DNA from: a virus
IMG/VR virus record: IMGVR_UViG_3300034418_007523
Span: 1-38,263 of that record
DNA length: 38,263 nucleotides
Direction: 5' to 3' (one strand)
The notes under the pieces were generated by a model. The model was not told the origin of the DNA and did no database searches. It saw only the letters and a program-made list of their open reading frames with translations. A program made the position numbers and the translations under genes. This document shows, in pieces, positions 817-13,135 of the stretch (positions are counted from its first letter, which is position 1; each line of letters begins with the position of its first letter).

Positions 817-2540
817 CAGGCAGGGTCTATTGTGGTGATTGGGTCTCCGGCAGTGGTGGTCACAGATGCCGACCAGCTTGCAGTGGTGTCATCTTCCTTG
901 GTCACTGTGAGCGTACCACCAGATATGGAGACTTTGTTTCTGTTCATTCTGAGCGCCTGACGTACTGTCCTGACTACATCGCTGCCTGAATCTGTCCCTG
1001 TGGACATATCCCTGTTTAAGATGGCATCAGCAATGGCGTTCCGCTCTGTAGCGGTAAGCACTACATCGGCATCGGTATCAGCCAGGATTGCATCCAGAAT
1101 CAGGTCGAGCCTGCCGCCATTTGTCCAATCGCCCTGTAGCTCATTGGTATCAATCAGTATTGCATCTGTGGACGCTTTAATGGCGCCTACATTGGCGTCC
1201 ACTGTGGCAAGGGCAGAGGCTGTGGCGGCACTGTCTGTGCCTCTCATATCCGTGTTGGTGGTACAGGTATCCACCAGATCGACATTCACAACAGCGCCAG
1301 CCAAGGTGGTAATGGCTCCATTGGATACAATGTCAGTGGCGGCTATGTTATTCAGTGCCGCTATATCAGCGGGGATACTTGTGCCGGTATCGACCAGAAT
1401 AGCATCCACATTAGAATCAATCGTTCCCAACTGGGTGTCCATGTTAGCCGAGGCCATGCCTACAGCAGAGCGCACACCGGCAGCGTCCAAATCATTCAGA
1501 TTAGTGTTAGCTGTCAAGACTCTTGTGCTGTATGTCCACACGTCCTCTGCGGTAATACCAGAACCACCGGCACCGGTGACCCACGCAGCATCGCCACGAT
1601 CTCTAATCGCTTCCAGTGAGTCAGTAGTACCTGAGAAGGTCGCACCTTTAATATCGGTCAAGTGCCCCTCAATGGTTGTGCCGGTATCTGTAAGGATTGC
1701 CGCCGTATCTGCCTTGATTGCGCCCAAACCATCTGTGCCATTGCTCAAATCTGTCTGTATGCCATCCACAACAGTGTCCACTGTGTCTACTTTGCCCTCG
1801 ATAGTCGTCAATGTGGCAGGTAGTGTTGTTCCTGTATCCACAAGAATGGCGTCCACGTTCGAGTCAACCGTAGCCAGGGCAGAAGCCTGTGCAATGCTTG
1901 TCATAGCCCCGGCATCTGGAATAACGTCTGTTACTGCCTTGATAGCAGCAACCTCTGTATCTATGTAACCCGCTATGGTGGCAAGTGTTGCTGGCAGCGT
2001 GGTTCCGGTGTCAGTCAAAATGGCATCCACGTTAGAATCGACCGTTGCTAATGCAGAAGCCGTTGCTGCGCTATCCGTTCCGCGCATATCGGTATTGGTT
2101 GTCACCGTATCGCAGAGATTGATAGAGGTGGCAGAAAGGTCAACGCTTGTGGTTGGGTTTTCGACGTTGCCCCAATCAATCCCAGCCGCGCCTGTTGCAG
2201 TCACATCAAGAGTGTTCCCGACTGTTATTTTTGGCCTGTACAGTTCAATGGTTCTTGTGACCGGAGCCATACCAGCGTGGGTGATATGGAAAACCATTTC
2301 CTCAGTATCATTACCAGAGCCGATGGTCATATCTTCATCAAGCAGTAATTCGTACACACCCGGCATATTTGATGAATCTGTTTCGTTAATCGTCGGGGTG
2401 GTCATTGCAGCCGCCACACCGCCATCTCTTGAACGATAAACGGTAAAGCTCGATAGCCCGGTTTCTCTGGTGGCAAAGTCAGTCGCATCGACCGCCACAA
2501 AATAAATATATTGGTCTGTGGTTCCGCTTGGAATCCTCAC
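816..2540 (-). CDS. Repeat-rich tail fibre protein
   Basis: A 574-residue protein starting at GTG 2540, with a strong GGAGGCG ribosome site about 7 bases upstream and a GTGA overlap with the previous gene. The N-terminal 110 residues look like a virion-attachment beta domain. The middle is a shaft of repeats built on a unit like SNVDAILTDTGT, with a duplicated block containing NTDMRGTDSAATASALATVD near residues 150 and 430. The C-terminal 80 residues carry a motif seen at the ends of many phage fibre proteins (VRTVRQALRMNRNK followed by a TLTVTKEDDTT strand). Receptor-facing fibre is the best reading; the exact receptor is unknown. Confidence 0.8.
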   Translation of the reverse strand: MRIPSGTTDQYIYFVAVDATDFATRETGLSSFTVYRSRDGGVAAAMTTPTINETDSSNMPGVYELLLDEDMTIGSGNDTEEMVFHITHAGMAPVTRTIELYRPKITVGNTLDVTATGAAGIDWGNVENPTTSVDLSATSINLCDTVTTNTDMRGTDSAATASALATVDSNVDAILTDTGTTLPATLATIAGYIDTEVAAIKAVTDVIPDAGAMTSIAQASALATVDSNVDAILVDTGTTLPATLTTIEGKVDTVDTVVDGIQTDLSNGTDGLGAIKADTAAILTDTGTTIEGHLTDIKGATFSGTTDSLEAIRDRGDAAWVTGAGGSGITAEDVWTYSTRVLTANTNLNDLDAAGVRSAVGMASANMDTQLGTIDSNVDAILVDTGTSIPADIAALNNIAATDIVSNGAITTLAGAVVNVDLVDTCTTNTDMRGTDSAATASALATVDANVGAIKASTDAILIDTNELQGDWTNGGRLDLILDAILADTDADVVLTATERNAIADAILNRDMSTGTDSGSDVVRTVRQALRMNRNKVSISGGTLTVTKEDDTTASWSASVTTTAGDPITTIDPA

Positions 2541-3841
2541 TGTAAAACGCCTCCAAGCCTATGTGCTGAGATAGTGGCAAACTGTCTGCCGAGATTTTGC
2601 GAACTAGGTGGAATTGCAGCCACTCCACCACCACCGCCGCCACTCGAGAAGGCAAAAGCCCACCCAAGAATAGCCGCCGCTGGATTGGTCGATAGCGTAT
2701 AAGTCCAGCCATTTGAATCGAGCGAATAGCCAGATGCCAGAAACGCATCTGCCGAACCTTGATAATCCAGCATCCTGAATTGATCGGATGACAGCGATTT
2801 ACAAACCGTATCTGCTGAACCATCTTCGTCTGACGTGCTTATGGTGTGTACTTGGCTGCTGTCTGTAAGCGCGAATGCGAGAGAAGCCGAGGGTGCAGCG
2901 GTGTCCAGCGTGTCATAAGCTGACGGGCCTTGAATTAAGCCCATTTGTGTAAATTCTGGCTGGAACGATAGACCGCTTTCTACCAGGTTCCCGCTTGTAG
3001 GGATGGACACGTCAGTAAGCGAGAAATCAACGCCAGCCGCAAACTTTAGCGCGAGCTGGATTGTTGTCGTGCTAGATGAGGAAGATGTAGTGTGGGTGTA
3101 GCCAGTTGATGTTATATCGCTGATCGTTAGGTTCCAGCGATTAGATCCAATTAAAGGCGCAACCAGTGCATAGGTATCAGATGCTATTGTGTTCTGGTCG
3201 CCAGATGATGACCCGCTGTCTCCACAAAACCCGATAGATTTCTGTGTCGGGGTTGTAGCGTTATCGTTGATAACACAGCCGTATGCAAATGGAGAGTGAA
3301 CTAGCCCACCGCTTGACGAACTAAAGTTGTGCGCGAGAAACAGCACATCGAACTCAAAGCCGATGCCTGTGTATGTCTGCGCGGCAGTGCTTGATTGAAG
3401 CCCTCGCTCGACGCACTTAACAGAATCAAGATCAGCCCCACCCCATAGAACCACGGTCAATAAATAACCGGCCGGGACAGCGTTGCTATCTACACTAACT
3501 CGAACCCCGTCGGCAATCCATGAGACAAAATCTAAACTACATTTGGTACCTCCGTTTGGATCAGCCACTATGGCAATAGAGCTGCCGCCAAAACCGGGAG
3601 TCCTTTGAGTGTCAGTGCTAGTCTGACCATCCTCATTAGCAATAGACACGCAGGTCGAGTAAGTGCCGTCAGAGAACCCAGCAGATACAGCTCCATGTGA
3701 AGCAATGGTATCGTCAGTGACTGCTTCTGACAAAAAGAACTGAGCAGCTTTGGGCGTACCAAAACCTGAGATTGTTATGTCTTGATTGCCGGTAGCAGTA
3801 TTAACCGCAACAACTGTAAACTCGCGCTTAACGTCAGCCAT
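2537..3841 (-). CDS. Tail-associated structural protein, unknown family
   Basis: About 434 residues from ATG at 3841, whose first base is the last base of the upstream TAA stop (TAATG). An in-frame extension to 3868 would overlap the upstream gene and is not preferred. The protein is rich in Ser, Thr, Gly and Asp with predicted beta strands, no signal peptide and a Gly-rich stretch near the C-terminus before the IPPSSQNLGRQF tail. I recognise the opening (TISGFGTPKAAQFFLSEAV) only as a type seen in uncharacterised phage proteins. Its place between other late tail-region genes suggests a virion component. Confidence 0.7.
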   Translation of the reverse strand: MADVKREFTVVAVNTATGNQDITISGFGTPKAAQFFLSEAVTDDTIASHGAVSAGFSDGTYSTCVSIANEDGQTSTDTQRTPGFGGSSIAIVADPNGGTKCSLDFVSWIADGVRVSVDSNAVPAGYLLTVVLWGGADLDSVKCVERGLQSSTAAQTYTGIGFEFDVLFLAHNFSSSSGGLVHSPFAYGCVINDNATTPTQKSIGFCGDSGSSSGDQNTIASDTYALVAPLIGSNRWNLTISDITSTGYTHTTSSSSSTTTIQLALKFAAGVDFSLTDVSIPTSGNLVESGLSFQPEFTQMGLIQGPSAYDTLDTAAPSASLAFALTDSSQVHTISTSDEDGSADTVCKSLSSDQFRMLDYQGSADAFLASGYSLDSNGWTYTLSTNPAAAILGWAFAFSSGGGGGGVAAIPPSSQNLGRQFATISAHRLGGVLQ

Positions 3842-6372
3842 TATTCTGTTGCACCACTGTCCAGCCAATCGCCTATAGCTTTTAGCTCAACCACAGTCAG
3901 GTCTACCGGATGATCGGCACCAAAATCAATATCATCGGCATACAGGTCATCGGTGCGACCATCGGTGCGCTCGTTCGCGGCCTTCCAGTACAGCAGGCTT
4001 TCACGGGCATACATGCTGTTGACGTATTTACTGGTGTAGGGCCGCTGTAAACCATACTTTCTGGTTTCGTTGGTGGAGCTGGTCATCTGCACTTTCAGGT
4101 GTTCCGGTAATACTTTCTGCGCGTAGTCCAGCGCCAGATCATCGTAATCGTATAGCGGCACATCACCGCCAACCGCATGGCAGCTTGTGCATTTCGCCTC
4201 AAAGATCGGTTTGATGTCTTTAGTGTAAGTGGGCACCGGCATGGCTTCCGTCAGGTCAAATGCCGGGGCACTGAACGCCATTGATTGTTCGTAGGGGCGG
4301 CCTTCTTTGGCATGCAGGTGACAACCCATACAGACGCGCTTCTCGCCCTGCCGCAATGACTGGGGAACCTGATCGCGTTTAATGATTCGTCCGTCTGAAT
4401 CTACCCCCGCCATCACATAGGGCGTTTCGCAGGGCAGTTCCGCCTTGAATGATTTGTCCGCCAGCAGTGGCACATCACCCAACAGCCTTAAATTGTTTCC
4501 TGTTCGGTTTGGTGGGCGAGAATACTCGCGGTTCGGGATGACCTCATAAAATCGGATTGCAGCTAATTCGCTATGATCTATGGCTTCCATCAACGCGCCG
4601 TTGTTGTTGACGGTTTTGTACTGCTCATTAAATACCCACGCATCGCGGTAGTTGAGCGCATCGGTTGACCCGGCATCAGAACTGGCAATCTGACAGGAGC
4701 CGTCATCGGTGTTAACCAGTGCCGGTGTGGGAATGTCTCTCGATACCACCACACGGGCGCTGAACTCGTGCCACTCTGGGCGATCAACGATTTTAACCAG
4801 ATCATCGGGCGAGTCACTTGGTATCACGGTGGTTTTATACAGACCCACATCACAGCCGATGTCGTCTCCGATCTTGTCCGGGGTGCTGGGTACACCTGTT
4901 GCGACTTGCGTACACATGCCGTTACCCACGGACAATAGAAGTTGATTGTCTGGAGTCCCTTCGGGCCAGCCCACTTTCCCGAGGTATTTACCATTCTCAT
5001 CTTTGCGGGATGTGGCGTCCTCAGAAGTAGACCAAATCGCTGCGCTGTAAAGATTTTCTGGATTAAATTCTGGCGCTGGGCCTTCAATGCCGTGCAGTTC
5101 AGGCTCCCAGCACACAACATCACCCAGGCCGAGGTTATTGGCTCGGTAATAATTCACTGTGCAAATGTCGTCATTGGCCCGCTGACCCAAAAAGTGCAGG
5201 GCTTTTCGTGTATTGCTGCGAGGATTTGAGCCAATCAATCGGGTGCCGTGTGCCCCAATCAATGCTGTCATATCCCCGCCACGGTAATCCATATCCAGTA
5301 TTTGCCACATATTGCTACTGGTTCCGGGCCAATTAATACTGCCATTGGTGGAGCCATACGATAAGTTGTGGCTTAACCACTGCGAGCTGTAGGCAACCCG
5401 GCCATTATTCAATAGAAAGGGGTGCAGGGCCGCCGTCACTTCGTGAGGGGTAATGTCTTTGACGTTCGTGCCATTTTCATCTGCTATGTAGATGCGGGGT
5501 TCTCTATCCCCAGAGTGGTTTATGCGATCCCGAAACGGCGCATAAAACCCATCCCGAGTGGAGCCAAACATCATTTTTCCGTTGGGCAACCATATCGGGG
5601 AAATGTCTTTATTGCCCTGATTGTGGGGCCATGCGGTCAGAGACTCACTCGCAATGTCATAGATGTAAATGCGGGCGTCCGTGTTCGAGCCATTGAGCTG
5701 CTGGGGCGGGTAGTTGCGATTCTCGGGCCACGGTGGTTTTAGTCCGTCGGCTGAGTAGACAGAGAAGGCAATCTTTGAACCGTCCAGTGACGGCATGGCA
5801 TCGAACGGCACACAGGGCCGTGCTTTGTCCATGCAGTCATAGATGATTTTCTCAGTGCCATCTTCCGCCCGCAGCACCAACTGCCCCGGCGCGTTGAAGC
5901 CATCGAACTGGCGACCCACTTCCGGCAGGGAGTCCATATAGTCCCAGTTGTCGCTGGTGTAGTCGCCGCTGCTCAGTGTAACGGTGTGTTCACCGTGAGT
6001 GCGAGGGACGCGGGTATAAACAATCACCTCGTCGCTTGGCGTGGGATCAACCACAACGGGCGGTTCTTCTGGCTCTGGCTCCGGTTCTGGATCATCCACG
6101 CCGTCATCGGGTGGCGTGACAGCATCACCGCTTGTTTCAATCGTGGCCGTTGGACGGATCACTTTGTAAGTGCCGTAGGGAAGGTTAAGCACCTTCTCCA
6201 GCGCCTTTTCATTGCTTGTTGATCCAGGAACACCATCGATGGGCACACCGTTCTCGTCGGCAATGATCAGGTTGGGCCATGTGGTCTTAACATCGCCAAA
6301 GGCATAACAGCCTATGACAAGACCAAGGATCAAACCTAAACAGCAATGTATAAGGATTGCTTTGTAGTTCAT
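3841..6372 (-). CDS. Exported beta-propeller dihaem protein, hydrazine-synthase-alpha-like
   Basis: An 843-residue protein with an N-terminal signal (residues 1-22) ending in a lipobox-like V-I-G-C22, then a Pro/Glu-rich linker (about 85-112). The middle holds propeller blades with PD40/TolB-like motifs near 193-207, 257-274 (ISPIWLPNGKMMFGSTRDG) and 316-330. The region from about 610 matches the pattern of the hydrazine synthase alpha middle domain (RLLGDVPLL, RQGEKRVCMGCH). Two c-type haem motifs are visible, CMGCH near 680 and CTSCH near 727, the second inside a DIKPIFEAKC-type cytochrome segment. It overlaps the lipase gene by ATGA and the next gene by one base, so it is part of the late operon, not a separately promoted insert. 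Export, lipidation and haem attachment are predicted. Hydrazine chemistry is not implied, since this domain occurs in other multihaem proteins. Confidence 0.88.
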   Translation of the reverse strand: MNYKAILIHCCLGLILGLVIGCYAFGDVKTTWPNLIIADENGVPIDGVPGSTSNEKALEKVLNLPYGTYKVIRPTATIETSGDAVTPPDDGVDDPEPEPEPEEPPVVVDPTPSDEVIVYTRVPRTHGEHTVTLSSGDYTSDNWDYMDSLPEVGRQFDGFNAPGQLVLRAEDGTEKIIYDCMDKARPCVPFDAMPSLDGSKIAFSVYSADGLKPPWPENRNYPPQQLNGSNTDARIYIYDIASESLTAWPHNQGNKDISPIWLPNGKMMFGSTRDGFYAPFRDRINHSGDREPRIYIADENGTNVKDITPHEVTAALHPFLLNNGRVAYSSQWLSHNLSYGSTNGSINWPGTSSNMWQILDMDYRGGDMTALIGAHGTRLIGSNPRSNTRKALHFLGQRANDDICTVNYYRANNLGLGDVVCWEPELHGIEGPAPEFNPENLYSAAIWSTSEDATSRKDENGKYLGKVGWPEGTPDNQLLLSVGNGMCTQVATGVPSTPDKIGDDIGCDVGLYKTTVIPSDSPDDLVKIVDRPEWHEFSARVVVSRDIPTPALVNTDDGSCQIASSDAGSTDALNYRDAWVFNEQYKTVNNNGALMEAIDHSELAAIRFYEVIPNREYSRPPNRTGNNLRLLGDVPLLADKSFKAELPCETPYVMAGVDSDGRIIKRDQVPQSLRQGEKRVCMGCHLHAKEGRPYEQSMAFSAPAFDLTEAMPVPTYTKDIKPIFEAKCTSCHAVGGDVPLYDYDDLALDYAQKVLPEHLKVQMTSSTNETRKYGLQRPYTSKYVNSMYARESLLYWKAANERTDGRTDDLYADDIDFGADHPVDLTVVELKAIGDWLDSGATE

Positions 6373-7019
6373 AAATTCCTGTTTTCCAGTGCAGCCATAT
6401 ACCGCTCGATTCCGTGAGCAGATCGACTAATACCGGGTTTTTTGTTCAGATATGTACGCTCGACCGAAGTTGAACCCCAAGGTGGGGCAAACCTGATCCA
6501 GTCGTTTTCGTTTAAATAGGAAGTAGTGGGTATCTTCATCGACCGGTAGCGTTCTTCTGCTTTCCAGTAAAAACTGGCAGGCTCACCAAATACAACCACC
6601 TCTGAAACGCTTAGGCTCATCCACTTGAGAATAGCAGCCATCTGTACCGCCATCGCAGCGCCTAGACTGTGCCCCGTCAGAATAATGGGCTTGTTGATCT
6701 TCACTAGGCGAAGCGCATACCGCTCACACCATGAAACCGCAGCACGACCAAAGCCCTTGTGAACTTGTGAGCCGTTAGGCATTGAATAAGGCCAGAAACG
6801 AAGGTCTTTAAATACGTCCCTGGCGTTCCTGATACCGTTAAGGCTGAAATTGCCAGCCAAGACTGACTCGCGCATCTCAGTACCACGGCATGAAATCTCT
6901 GTATATCCGCCACGCTGCCTAACCAGTGCGTCATTCTCCGATACCGACCAAATATCCGTCCTGCTTGAATCATAAGAATCGTTGCACAGCACAGCTAGAT
7001 CGTAGTGTGTTGGCTGCAT
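6369..7019 (-). CDS. Class 3 lipase-like alpha/beta hydrolase
   Basis: A 216-residue protein of the fungal-type (class 3) lipase family. The nucleophile elbow GHSLG places Ser118, Asp173 sits in NENDW and His202 in AHGIERY, giving a complete catalytic triad in the right order. A conserved RGT near 45-47 lies in the oxyanion region. No signal peptide is visible, so access to membrane lipids would follow holin action or occur in the virion. It is directly downstream of the endolysin/lipoprotein region and overlaps the next gene by ATGA. It could help disrupt the outer membrane at lysis or act in the tail; the sequence does not decide. Confidence 0.85.
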   Translation of the reverse strand: MQPTHYDLAVLCNDSYDSSRTDIWSVSENDALVRQRGGYTEISCRGTEMRESVLAGNFSLNGIRNARDVFKDLRFWPYSMPNGSQVHKGFGRAAVSWCERYALRLVKINKPIILTGHSLGAAMAVQMAAILKWMSLSVSEVVVFGEPASFYWKAEERYRSMKIPTTSYLNENDWIRFAPPWGSTSVERTYLNKKPGISRSAHGIERYMAALENRNL

Positions 7020-7132
7020 GGCGGTATCTCGGTTTGAACGGTGTTGCCTTCAACGGTGACAATATCAATGGTTGTCACAGCAACAGTGCATCCGGTTAAG
7101 GCGACGGCGGTGACAAAAATAAGAAATTTCAG
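6995..7132 (-). CDS. Candidate small lipoprotein lacking a normal start codon
   Basis: An open frame fills the gap between the endolysin and lipase genes. It encodes a signal-like segment ending in a lipobox (LKFLIFVTAVALTGC) and then about 30 residues, stopping at TAG 6995-6997 inside the lipase gene. Upstream in this frame there is a TGA, then codons for Arg, Lys, Lys, Ser, Ala, Ile and Leu, with no ATG, GTG or TTG. A CTG at 7132 or ATC at 7135 would have to serve as start, or initiation is coupled to the endolysin stop at 7129. By position it could be an outer-membrane spanin (Rz1-like) or a lysis lipoprotein. No separate Rz was seen. A base change that destroyed the start is the alternative. 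Confidence 0.5.
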   Translation of the reverse strand: MKFLIFVTAVALTGCTVAVTTIDIVTVEGNTVQTEIPPCSQHTTI

Positions 7133-7443
7133 GATTGCGCTTTTCTTTCGTCAAACTCGACGTGGATATGATCGCTTTCGATCACCACGTCATAGCAGAA
7201 CCCAAGCCTGGAGGCGATGGCGCTTGCCACCTGTATGATTTCATCCTGATTTGAGAAATAGTGTGTCCGCAGGTCGATAGCTAGACCCTTGTAATGGTAA
7301 GAGTCATCCCCGTGTTTCCCGTCCGTGATTGAAGTAATAACAAGGTTGTGGCCCTGTAATGCGTACACCTCATTAGCGACGATGGCGGCAATCATGATCT
7401 CTGGTCGCATGCCAAGCGGGTTAACCCCTTTTTTCAGCATCAT
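7129..7443 (-). CDS. Endolysin, M15-type L-Ala-D-Glu peptidase
   Basis: About 104 residues from ATG at 7443; the longer frame to 7551 would overlap the holin gene heavily. The M15 zinc peptidase signature is complete: S48-x-H50-x-x-G53-x-A55-x-D57 and the C-terminal H92-x-H94, giving the metal ligands His50, Asp57 and His94. Length and motif order match small phage endolysins that cleave the peptide stem of peptidoglycan. No signal peptide is seen, so release depends on the upstream holin. The start overlaps the end of the holin gene. Confidence 0.88.
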   Translation of the reverse strand: MMLKKGVNPLGMRPEIMIAAIVANEVYALQGHNLVITSITDGKHGDDSYHYKGLAIDLRTHYFSNQDEIIQVASAIASRLGFCYDVVIESDHIHVEFDERKAQS

Positions 7444-7762
7444 TTCGCTCGTCCTGCTTATGCATTGAATCCATCTTTGCGTCAAACAGTTTTTCCTCAC
7501 GCTTGTCACGGCGATAGAAAACAATGGCCTGTAAGACCAAACTGACAACACCGACGATGATCCCAGCCATCACGCCATAATCGGCAACCGTCATCCAGTT
7601 CTGGTCTGTCATGGCAGTTTTAGCGGCTCCACTGGCAGCGGCAATACCACCACCAGCAACAGATAGCTTGGGCGTTACAGAGGCAACTACCTGCTCGATT
7701 CCTTGAACTTTCTCTGTAAACAAAGCGCCAATGCTCAAAACAAACTCCTGATCGGCAGACAT
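7421..7762 (-). CDS. Putative holin
   Basis: 113 residues from ATG at 7762. One clear membrane segment spans about residues 63-83 (VMAGIIVGVVSLVLQAIVF), followed by a strongly charged cytoplasmic-type tail rich in Lys, Arg, Asp and Glu. A Gly/Ala-rich stretch at 36-50 may be a second weaker segment. This arrangement resembles HP1-type phage holins. The ATG follows directly after the T-run of an intrinsic terminator, with no good ribosome site. An internal Met at about 51 has a GGAG further upstream, so a second start is possible. The gene directly precedes the endolysin. Confidence 0.8.
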   Translation of the reverse strand: MSADQEFVLSIGALFTEKVQGIEQVVASVTPKLSVAGGGIAAASGAAKTAMTDQNWMTVADYGVMAGIIVGVVSLVLQAIVFYRRDKREEKLFDAKMDSMHKQDERNDAEKRG

Positions 7763-7786
7763 AAAAAAACCGCCACTGTGGGCGGT
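7763..7786 (-). terminator. Intrinsic terminator immediately before the holin
   Basis: Minus strand: six-base stem ACCGCC / GGCGGT with loop CACAGT, followed by seven T residues that run straight into the holin ATG. Late transcripts must read through it to express lysis and structural genes. Confidence 0.8.
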
Positions 7787-7923
7787 CACGAATTTAGAAA
7801 CCCCTCGCAGGGAGCTGATCTTACGGGTAGCTGGAGGGGTATGGCCCATCATGGGCAAAAGGCTGAACCCCCGGACAATGTATGCCGCAGGGATTCGGAT
7901 ATTCATCACGCAAAAGGCGAATG

Positions 7924-12226: not shown

Positions 12227-13135
12227 CTATTGGTTAAACAGATCAGGGTCAACTACCCCGGCCTCACAAGATTCAGAGCATAAGCTCTCCCTGCTTCCTC
12301 CAAGGAGCACCTGCCTGGATAAATCCTCTCGGCTAATATTTTCATAGGAATCAATAATAGATTTTAAGGAGTGGGAGCCCCTGTACATGATTTCCGGCGG
12401 CAAGTCTCTGGATGGTTTTTTATGAACAGCGTCACTAGCGATCATGTCCATAAACTGTGCCGCCATATCTGGTTCGTCTTTTGCGGCAAGCGCAATCTTG
12501 TTAGAGCCTTTTTTAATACAAAAGACACAGTTGCCAAGGTGTTCAGGCAGGTCTAAATTAAATTCCTGGTCTTCCCACCAATCCAAAACTTCGCTTTTTG
12601 TAATGTCAGAGATTTGAGCCAAATATCTAGTTGTTTTGATTCTATTGTCGGCTGGCTTGGTTTTCTCAAACATATCAAGCTGGCTCTCAGTCGTCTTAAT
12701 TCTTGATTGCTCGTCTACCCGCATTCCAAGCCAGCGGTAATAGTTACCTCGACCATACTTATCGTTGCAGTATTTATCTGCCGGTATTCCTTTCATCCTG
12801 TCGGAGCATAAAGGAGCAGCCACAGTTGGGGTGCCGTGTTTGCGACATACATCCATAAACGGTTCAAGGTCTTGCTTGCAGTCATCAATCTCAACAACTC
12901 GATACCCTGGTCCAACACCAAACTCCATGTTGATTATTGTTCTTAGACATGTGAGCTTTATCCCAAAATTCTCGACGACATCTTTAATAAACTTGTATGT
13001 GTTTGGGTGTTCCGCCCCAGTGTCACAGTAAATATACTCAACATTTATGTTCTCTCGTTTGCGTCTTTGCTCAAACAGCCAAACCATGTATGCAGACGTC
13101 CTTCCACCTGAAAAATTCACCACATGATTTTCCAT
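12227..13135 (-). CDS. PAPS-reductase-like PP-loop protein
   Basis: 302 residues with a GGAGGGTGTGGC-ATG start. The PP-loop SGGRTSA (residues 9-15) binds ATP in adenine nucleotide alpha hydrolases. Asp38 lies in CDTGAEHPNT, a typical second motif. C203-x-x-C206 (CVFCIKK) and C-terminal Cys residues could hold an Fe-S cluster or zinc. Phage members of this family are common and of uncertain role; proposals include sulfur metabolism and DNA modification akin to DndC (inference). There are no dnd genes nearby. Confidence 0.85.
   Translation of the reverse strand: MENHVVNFSGGRTSAYMVWLFEQRRKRENINVEYIYCDTGAEHPNTYKFIKDVVENFGIKLTCLRTIINMEFGVGPGYRVVEIDDCKQDLEPFMDVCRKHGTPTVAAPLCSDRMKGIPADKYCNDKYGRGNYYRWLGMRVDEQSRIKTTESQLDMFEKTKPADNRIKTTRYLAQISDITKSEVLDWWEDQEFNLDLPEHLGNCVFCIKKGSNKIALAAKDEPDMAAQFMDMIASDAVHKKPSRDLPPEIMYRGSHSLKSIIDSYENISREDLSRQVLLGGSRESLCSESCEAGVVDPDLFNQ

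Follow-up and report, generated by a model that had tools for sequence, protein, structure and literature searches.

A hydrazine-synthase-alpha-like protein with two predicted haems, encoded behind the lysis genes of phages

Why would a group of marine phages encode an exported protein with two haem motifs directly behind their lysis genes? The question is raised by a gene in a linear virus record of 38,263 bases, the whole of which was analysed here and is called the window. A sequence-only reading had described the product as an exported dihaem protein resembling hydrazine synthase (HZS) alpha, encoded in a phage late operon. That description stands, and what it missed is the capture of the gene, its position beside lysis and hydrolase genes, its phage-specific front end and its exchange with the host. 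The single intact frame was recovered as reported; the strand, absent from that reading, is now set as minus (6372→3841), and the frame starts with ATG, encodes 843 aa and has zero internal stops. The reported ATGA and TAATG contacts are also present: the 5' lipase gene overlaps the HZS-like gene by ATGA, and the stop of the HZS-like gene shares TAATG with the start of the next gene, which is of structural type.

3841..6372, minus strand: HZS-alpha-like dihaem propeller protein; open frame, PF18582 above the cut-off, profile and fold match to 5c2v
2537..3842, minus strand: downstream structural-type gene (MADVKREF...); TAATG contact, homologue in another phage group
6369..7019, minus strand: class 3 lipase, 216 aa; Lipase_3 E 2.9e-12, ATGA overlap with the HZS-like gene

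Terminase, portal, protease, capsid, tail and tape-measure genes lie in the window on the same strand as the HZS-like gene, and thus the phage setting is certain and the operon context proposed earlier is confirmed. The downstream structural-type gene recurs at 90-92% in a different phage group (L099-L101) without an adjoining HZS-like gene. The window also contains, on the minus strand, a phosphoadenosine phosphosulfate reductase-like gene (12227-13135; phrog_33262, E 4.8e-85), and such genes are common phage auxiliary genes. Within the head-tail operon, glycosyltransferase-like and sialyltransferase/MptE-like genes (30674-31309 and 31812-32420, minus strand) may be related to surface or virion glycans.

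Residues 112-843, the body of the protein, are a true hydrazine-synthase-alpha homologue. The window protein scored 34.8 bits against HZS_alpha PF18582 (cut-off 26.6; Pfam E 2.5e-8), and a profile built from 25 relatives matched HZS alpha 5c2v with an E of 2.3e-34, over stretches in the propeller, middle and C-terminal parts. Structure prediction, which the sequence-only reading had proposed as a check, gave an AF2 model with a pLDDT of 67.7 and a pTM of 0.68, in which residues 1-111 are mostly of very low confidence. In Foldseek the model matched 5c2v over nearly its full length (E 6e-26, TM 0.52-0.56) and the next matches were TolB propellers. Compared with 5c2v, the modelled protein has the same architecture of a propeller, a middle domain with a CxxCH motif and a C-terminal cytochrome c. 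The propeller motifs, RLLGDVPLL, GEKRVCMGCH (C681-H685) and CTSCH (C728-H732) are all where they had been read, and residues 600-843, on which the haem assignment had been staked, match a haem-binding family in profile search.

4318..4332, minus strand: first haem motif CMGCH, residues 681-685; C681, G683, C684 and H685 invariant in 25 relatives
4177..4191, minus strand: second haem motif CTSCH, residues 728-732; C728, C731 and H732 invariant in 25 relatives

The equivalents of the HZS residues were taken from a phmmer alignment with 5c2v, using a chain numbering offset of 27 derived from His587 and His772. H685 corresponds to His587, H732 to His689 and H821 to His772. H821 is invariant in 25/25 relatives and is a candidate distal haem ligand. 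Conserved CxxCH motifs occur together with an export signal (Sec- or lipoprotein-type, read by eye), as expected of a c-type cytochrome, and the phage protein is predicted to bind two c-type haems covalently. Tyr591 is a ligand of the catalytic haem (alpha-I) in hydrazine synthase (PMC12607021, PMC12758564) and is missing in other non-anammox homologues (PMC12758564). In the ungapped alignment with 5c2v, Lys689 occupies the Tyr591 position. Since this catalytic tyrosine is absent, the protein is a member of the family but not a hydrazine synthase. Moreover, its score against the NCBIfam equivalog NF052339 was 25.2 bits, far below the 800-bit cut-off, and together these results rule out hydrazine synthesis. 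General PHROGs or Pfam scans of most larger window ORFs gave no beta or gamma subunit partner.

Six further, independent IMG/VR contigs from other metagenomes encode the HZS-like protein at 57-97% identity, as sought in the search of viral contigs that had been suggested. These contigs bear the gene in phage settings and mis-assembly is thus excluded. Contig L002 matches the window at 95.5% across the lysis genes and the entire HZS-like gene and diverges at the next gene, while in L003 this module lies upstream of another terminase and portal. Among the phages the downstream neighbour varies and the lysis neighbours are constant. The HZS-like protein had zero matches in 50,697 annotated phage records or PHROGs, in agreement with the earlier statement that no phage example was known. 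BFVD gave only weak matches to a generic propeller fold, no HZS-like match was found on plasmids, no HZS-like copy was seen in 16 records (mostly fragments) with TerL relatives of the window, and a literature search on phage-borne HZS or multihaem cytochromes found nothing directly relevant. To our knowledge, phage-borne c-type cytochromes are rare.

The phage copies have in common a front end that sets them apart from the cellular genes.

6022..6372, minus strand: phage-specific front end, residues 1-117; common to the phage copies, unmatched in 9 host genomes

It consists of a signal with a lipobox, a module of about 50 aa (NLIIADENGVPIDGVPGST...GTYKVIRP) and an acidic Pro/Glu linker. The N-terminal signal MNYKAILIHCCLGLILGLVIGC ends in VIGC, which fits a lipobox by eye, so the lipobox-like end reported earlier is present. 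VIGC is found in the window, L002, L003, L005 and L007, and is absent in L004 and L006, which have an ordinary Sec-type signal. Every phage copy that includes the N-terminus opens with an export signal; the host homologues carry export signals as well, though their signal and linker differ from those of the phages or give way to a fused domain. The module follows a course of its own: between the window and L004 it is 84% identical while the bodies are 58% identical, and between the window and L003 it is 48% identical while the bodies are 84% identical. Relatives of the module were found in these phages only, and a search for the front end in nine host genomes, run without a positive control, gave no match. 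Matches of the module to L019 and to phage records look like chance. The linker adjoining the body, PPVVVDPTPSDEVIVYTRVPRTHGEH, is the same in the phage and in the host locus L008, and thus the join is likely around residues 98-110. Against the nine host genomes, the first ~110 residues are phage-specific.

The closest cellular genes found are from Porticoccus MAGs (L008-L012, L035), with 84-86% aa identity over the body. The HZS-like gene is present in 9/112 genomes of the family and occurs once per genome in five Porticoccus genomes, in one of which, G004, it is read as two pieces. In the host it sits between an exosortase-A (XrtA/PEP-CTERM) polysaccharide cluster, marked by a TIGR04063 glycosyltransferase, a TIGR03097 ligase and a TIGR03108 amidotransferase, and hflK-hflC. 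Polysaccharide genes also adjoin the HZS-like gene in G418 and G624. Phage and host share identical DNA runs of 119 nt (window and L035) and of 144 and 130 nt (L003 and L009). In shuffled controls the maxima averaged 38-39 nt and 0/300 shuffles gave a run as long, indicating recent exchange between phage and host. Because these runs join the two, Porticoccus-like bacteria are the probable hosts of the HZS-bearing phages. The phage body was almost certainly captured from the host exosortase-A polysaccharide locus. One capture by a common ancestor of the phages is neither favoured nor contradicted: the gene tree requires at least two changes of phage/host label, but an AU test of the window, L002 and L003 as one clade gave a p of 0.107. 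A prophage-remnant origin of the host loci is unsupported, as the host genes adjoin hflKC in the polysaccharide locus. The phage terminase and lipase had no match in the nine host genomes, in searches without a positive control. The dN/dS was 0.17 for the window and L002, 0.10 for the window and L003, and 0.11 for the window and the host, indicating purifying selection, as is usual for a functional protein, in the phages and in the host. In other Pseudomonadota (L060-L068), the genes that recur in a cluster around the HZS-like gene are, by eye, SH3-like, outer-membrane-like and TlpA-like, in some cases ApbE-like too, and a second gene with two CxxCH motifs is often close by.

Upstream of the HZS-like gene, the order holin-like gene, M15-like peptidase gene, lipase gene is found in both the window and L003.

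6995..7135, within the open frame 6995-7150, minus strand: possible small lipoprotein frame (LKFLIFVTAVALTGC...), ~45 aa; no ATG/GTG/TTG start
7129..7551, minus strand: M15-like peptidase, probable endolysin; HYKGLAIDLR...HIHVEFDE by eye, weak HH_signal match only
7421..7909, minus strand: holin-like protein; phrog_1350 E 3.5e-4, phrog_4237 E 4.7e-4

The small lipoprotein-like frame between the peptidase and the lipase is also seen in L003. The lipase has a candidate triad S118/D173/H202, read by eye. A signal peptide is not evident in it, and thus it could meet the HZS-like protein only after the holin has opened the membrane. Every relative of the phage lipase that was found comes from a phage with the HZS-like gene. 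In L004 the lipase slot is filled by a different 211-aa protein with weak hydrolase matches only (Pfam). Across different phage backbones the HZS-like gene follows lysis genes and a hydrolase. In G001, G081 and G083 the host HZS-like protein carries a fused alpha/beta-hydrolase-like domain with GKSLGG/GVSLGG. Segments bearing Asp and His make this domain hydrolase-like by eye, and it had no Pfam match above the cut-off. A BD-FAE type esterase also lies near the host HZS-like gene. The phage hydrolase-HZS gene pair thus appears to echo the association found in the host fusion. In the distant genome G806 (L059, 8840-12592), away from any obvious prophage, 3 bases separate an HZS-like gene from the endolysin-like gene (GH108/peptidoglycan-binding) that comes after it.

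What, then, might the protein do for the phage? As the best overall explanation we tentatively favour a functional host-derived envelope protein, made late and acting at the surface polysaccharide or in release. Its most likely role would be that of an exported mimic of the host polysaccharide-locus protein, altering the envelope late or blocking re-adsorption. Judging from the gene order, the protein would be synthesized late. It would be exported by Sec and receive two c-type haems from the cytochrome maturation machinery of the host. Its place would then be the periplasm or the outer membrane, in the lineage of the window as a lipoprotein, where it would act on surface polysaccharide or replace the host protein. 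The co-encoded hydrolase would work alongside it once the holin opens the membrane, and with the surface glycan or receptor altered, the progeny could leave rather than be trapped on debris or on already infected cells. For an envelope function tied to lysis or release the chances are about even. A specific action on polysaccharide is more doubtful, since it is drawn from the neighbourhood and the fusion in a subfamily without a member of known substrate, and in other Pseudomonadota the relatives have different, ApbE/TlpA-type neighbours. The link with a hydrolase is in turn weakened by the fused host domain having no Pfam match above the cut-off, by the phage lipase having none in the host genomes, and by the lipase showing no evident signal peptide. 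A bolder and unlikely version is that the redox-active dihaem propeller and the co-encoded hydrolase form a late module that chemically alters exosortase-type surface polysaccharide and frees the progeny, a pair that the host would run as a fusion.

The host gene itself bears on a rival reading that overlaps with this one, superinfection exclusion, in which the host protein, or what it displays, would be a phage receptor and a phage mimic or decoy of it would stop re-adsorption of the progeny. Among L008, L009, L010, L012 and L035, the HZS-like gene has a dS of 0.61, two to three times the 0.18-0.34 of six neighbours (hflKC and polysaccharide genes), and mosaic blocks. It thus looks like a hotspot of allele swapping, as expected of a swapped surface protein, and the phage body still exchanges with host alleles. 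Tyr at +2 after the lipobox Cys, as in the window, is compatible with outer-membrane sorting. However, a dN/dS of about 0.1 is a mark of constraint and not of rapid amino-acid change, L004 and L006 have no lipobox, and a decoy would not need both haem sites fully conserved. Such receptor masking requires no enzyme activity, and as the whole explanation we consider it rather improbable.

The conserved haem sites instead agree with an auxiliary redox gene that would aid electron transfer in the host, or remove reactive species, while the infection runs. CcmH, and with it cytochrome maturation, is present in 6/6 host genomes, and the ApbE-like and TlpA-like neighbours of the relatives fit such a role. 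But the gene sits behind lysis genes, a position that upholds the earlier argument against long-term host metabolism, an electron-transfer role is not known for the HZS-alpha family, and the alpha-II haem of hydrazine synthase itself is without an assigned role (PMC12607021). We therefore regard this role as quite unlikely. A functionless passenger, a host fragment acquired by chance, would agree with the ongoing recombination and with the two contigs (L005 and L007) that end inside the gene, yet all full-length copies are intact on distinct backbones in the same genomic slot, dN/dS between phages is about 0.1, and the phage-specific signal and module are kept, making it very unlikely. A virion component, with a particle-displayed propeller that binds the host, had been offered by the sequence-only reading, and it could draw on the adjoining structural-type gene and on the propeller folds of virion proteins (weak generic matches), but it is highly improbable because every phage copy with an N-terminus starts with an export signal, the host homologues are likewise exported, no phage structural homologue was found, and from phage to phage it is the downstream gene that differs, with the lysis genes constant.

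We know of no function for the HZS-alpha family outside anammox bacteria, and the phage context (lysis neighbours, hydrolase partner and host polysaccharide locus) gives a concrete, testable lead on this branch. In addition, a gene of a host surface locus is seen to pass between phages and host, in events that are clearly recent. If true, the redox and hydrolase module would be a new phage way of handling the host surface and a first function for the HZS-alpha branch.

Among known systems, the HZS-like gene of the Porticoccus exosortase-A locus is like the phage copy in the body (84-86%), in the haem motifs and ligands and in the identical DNA stretches. They differ in front end and setting: in the Porticoccus copies the body is preceded by another signal and linker or by a fused hydrolase-like domain, and in the phage by a signal and ~50-aa module of its own, with the gene placed behind lysis genes. 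Kuenenia stuttgartiensis hydrazine synthase alpha (5c2v) shares the propeller, the CxxCH middle domain, the C-terminal cytochrome c and the equivalents of His587, His689 and His772, but identity in the structural alignment is about 14%, Lys689 replaces Tyr591, and no beta or gamma subunit was seen in the window. Non-anammox HZS_alpha homologues have been reported in Planctomycetota and Desulfobacterota, near beta/gamma-like genes and without His772; they likewise have the haem alpha-I site and lack Tyr591 (PMC12758564). In contrast, the present subgroup is from Pseudomonadota, has a His where hydrazine synthase has His772, and is carried by phages. Phage morons and auxiliary genes are likewise host-derived viral cargo that recombines with the host gene, but the protein described here is dihaem c-type cytochrome-like, has a swapped phage front end and is coupled to lysis genes, with no such case in the phage collections searched. 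While the family is already known in bacteria, a predicted two-haem propeller envelope protein behind lysis genes is new for phages in the collections searched.
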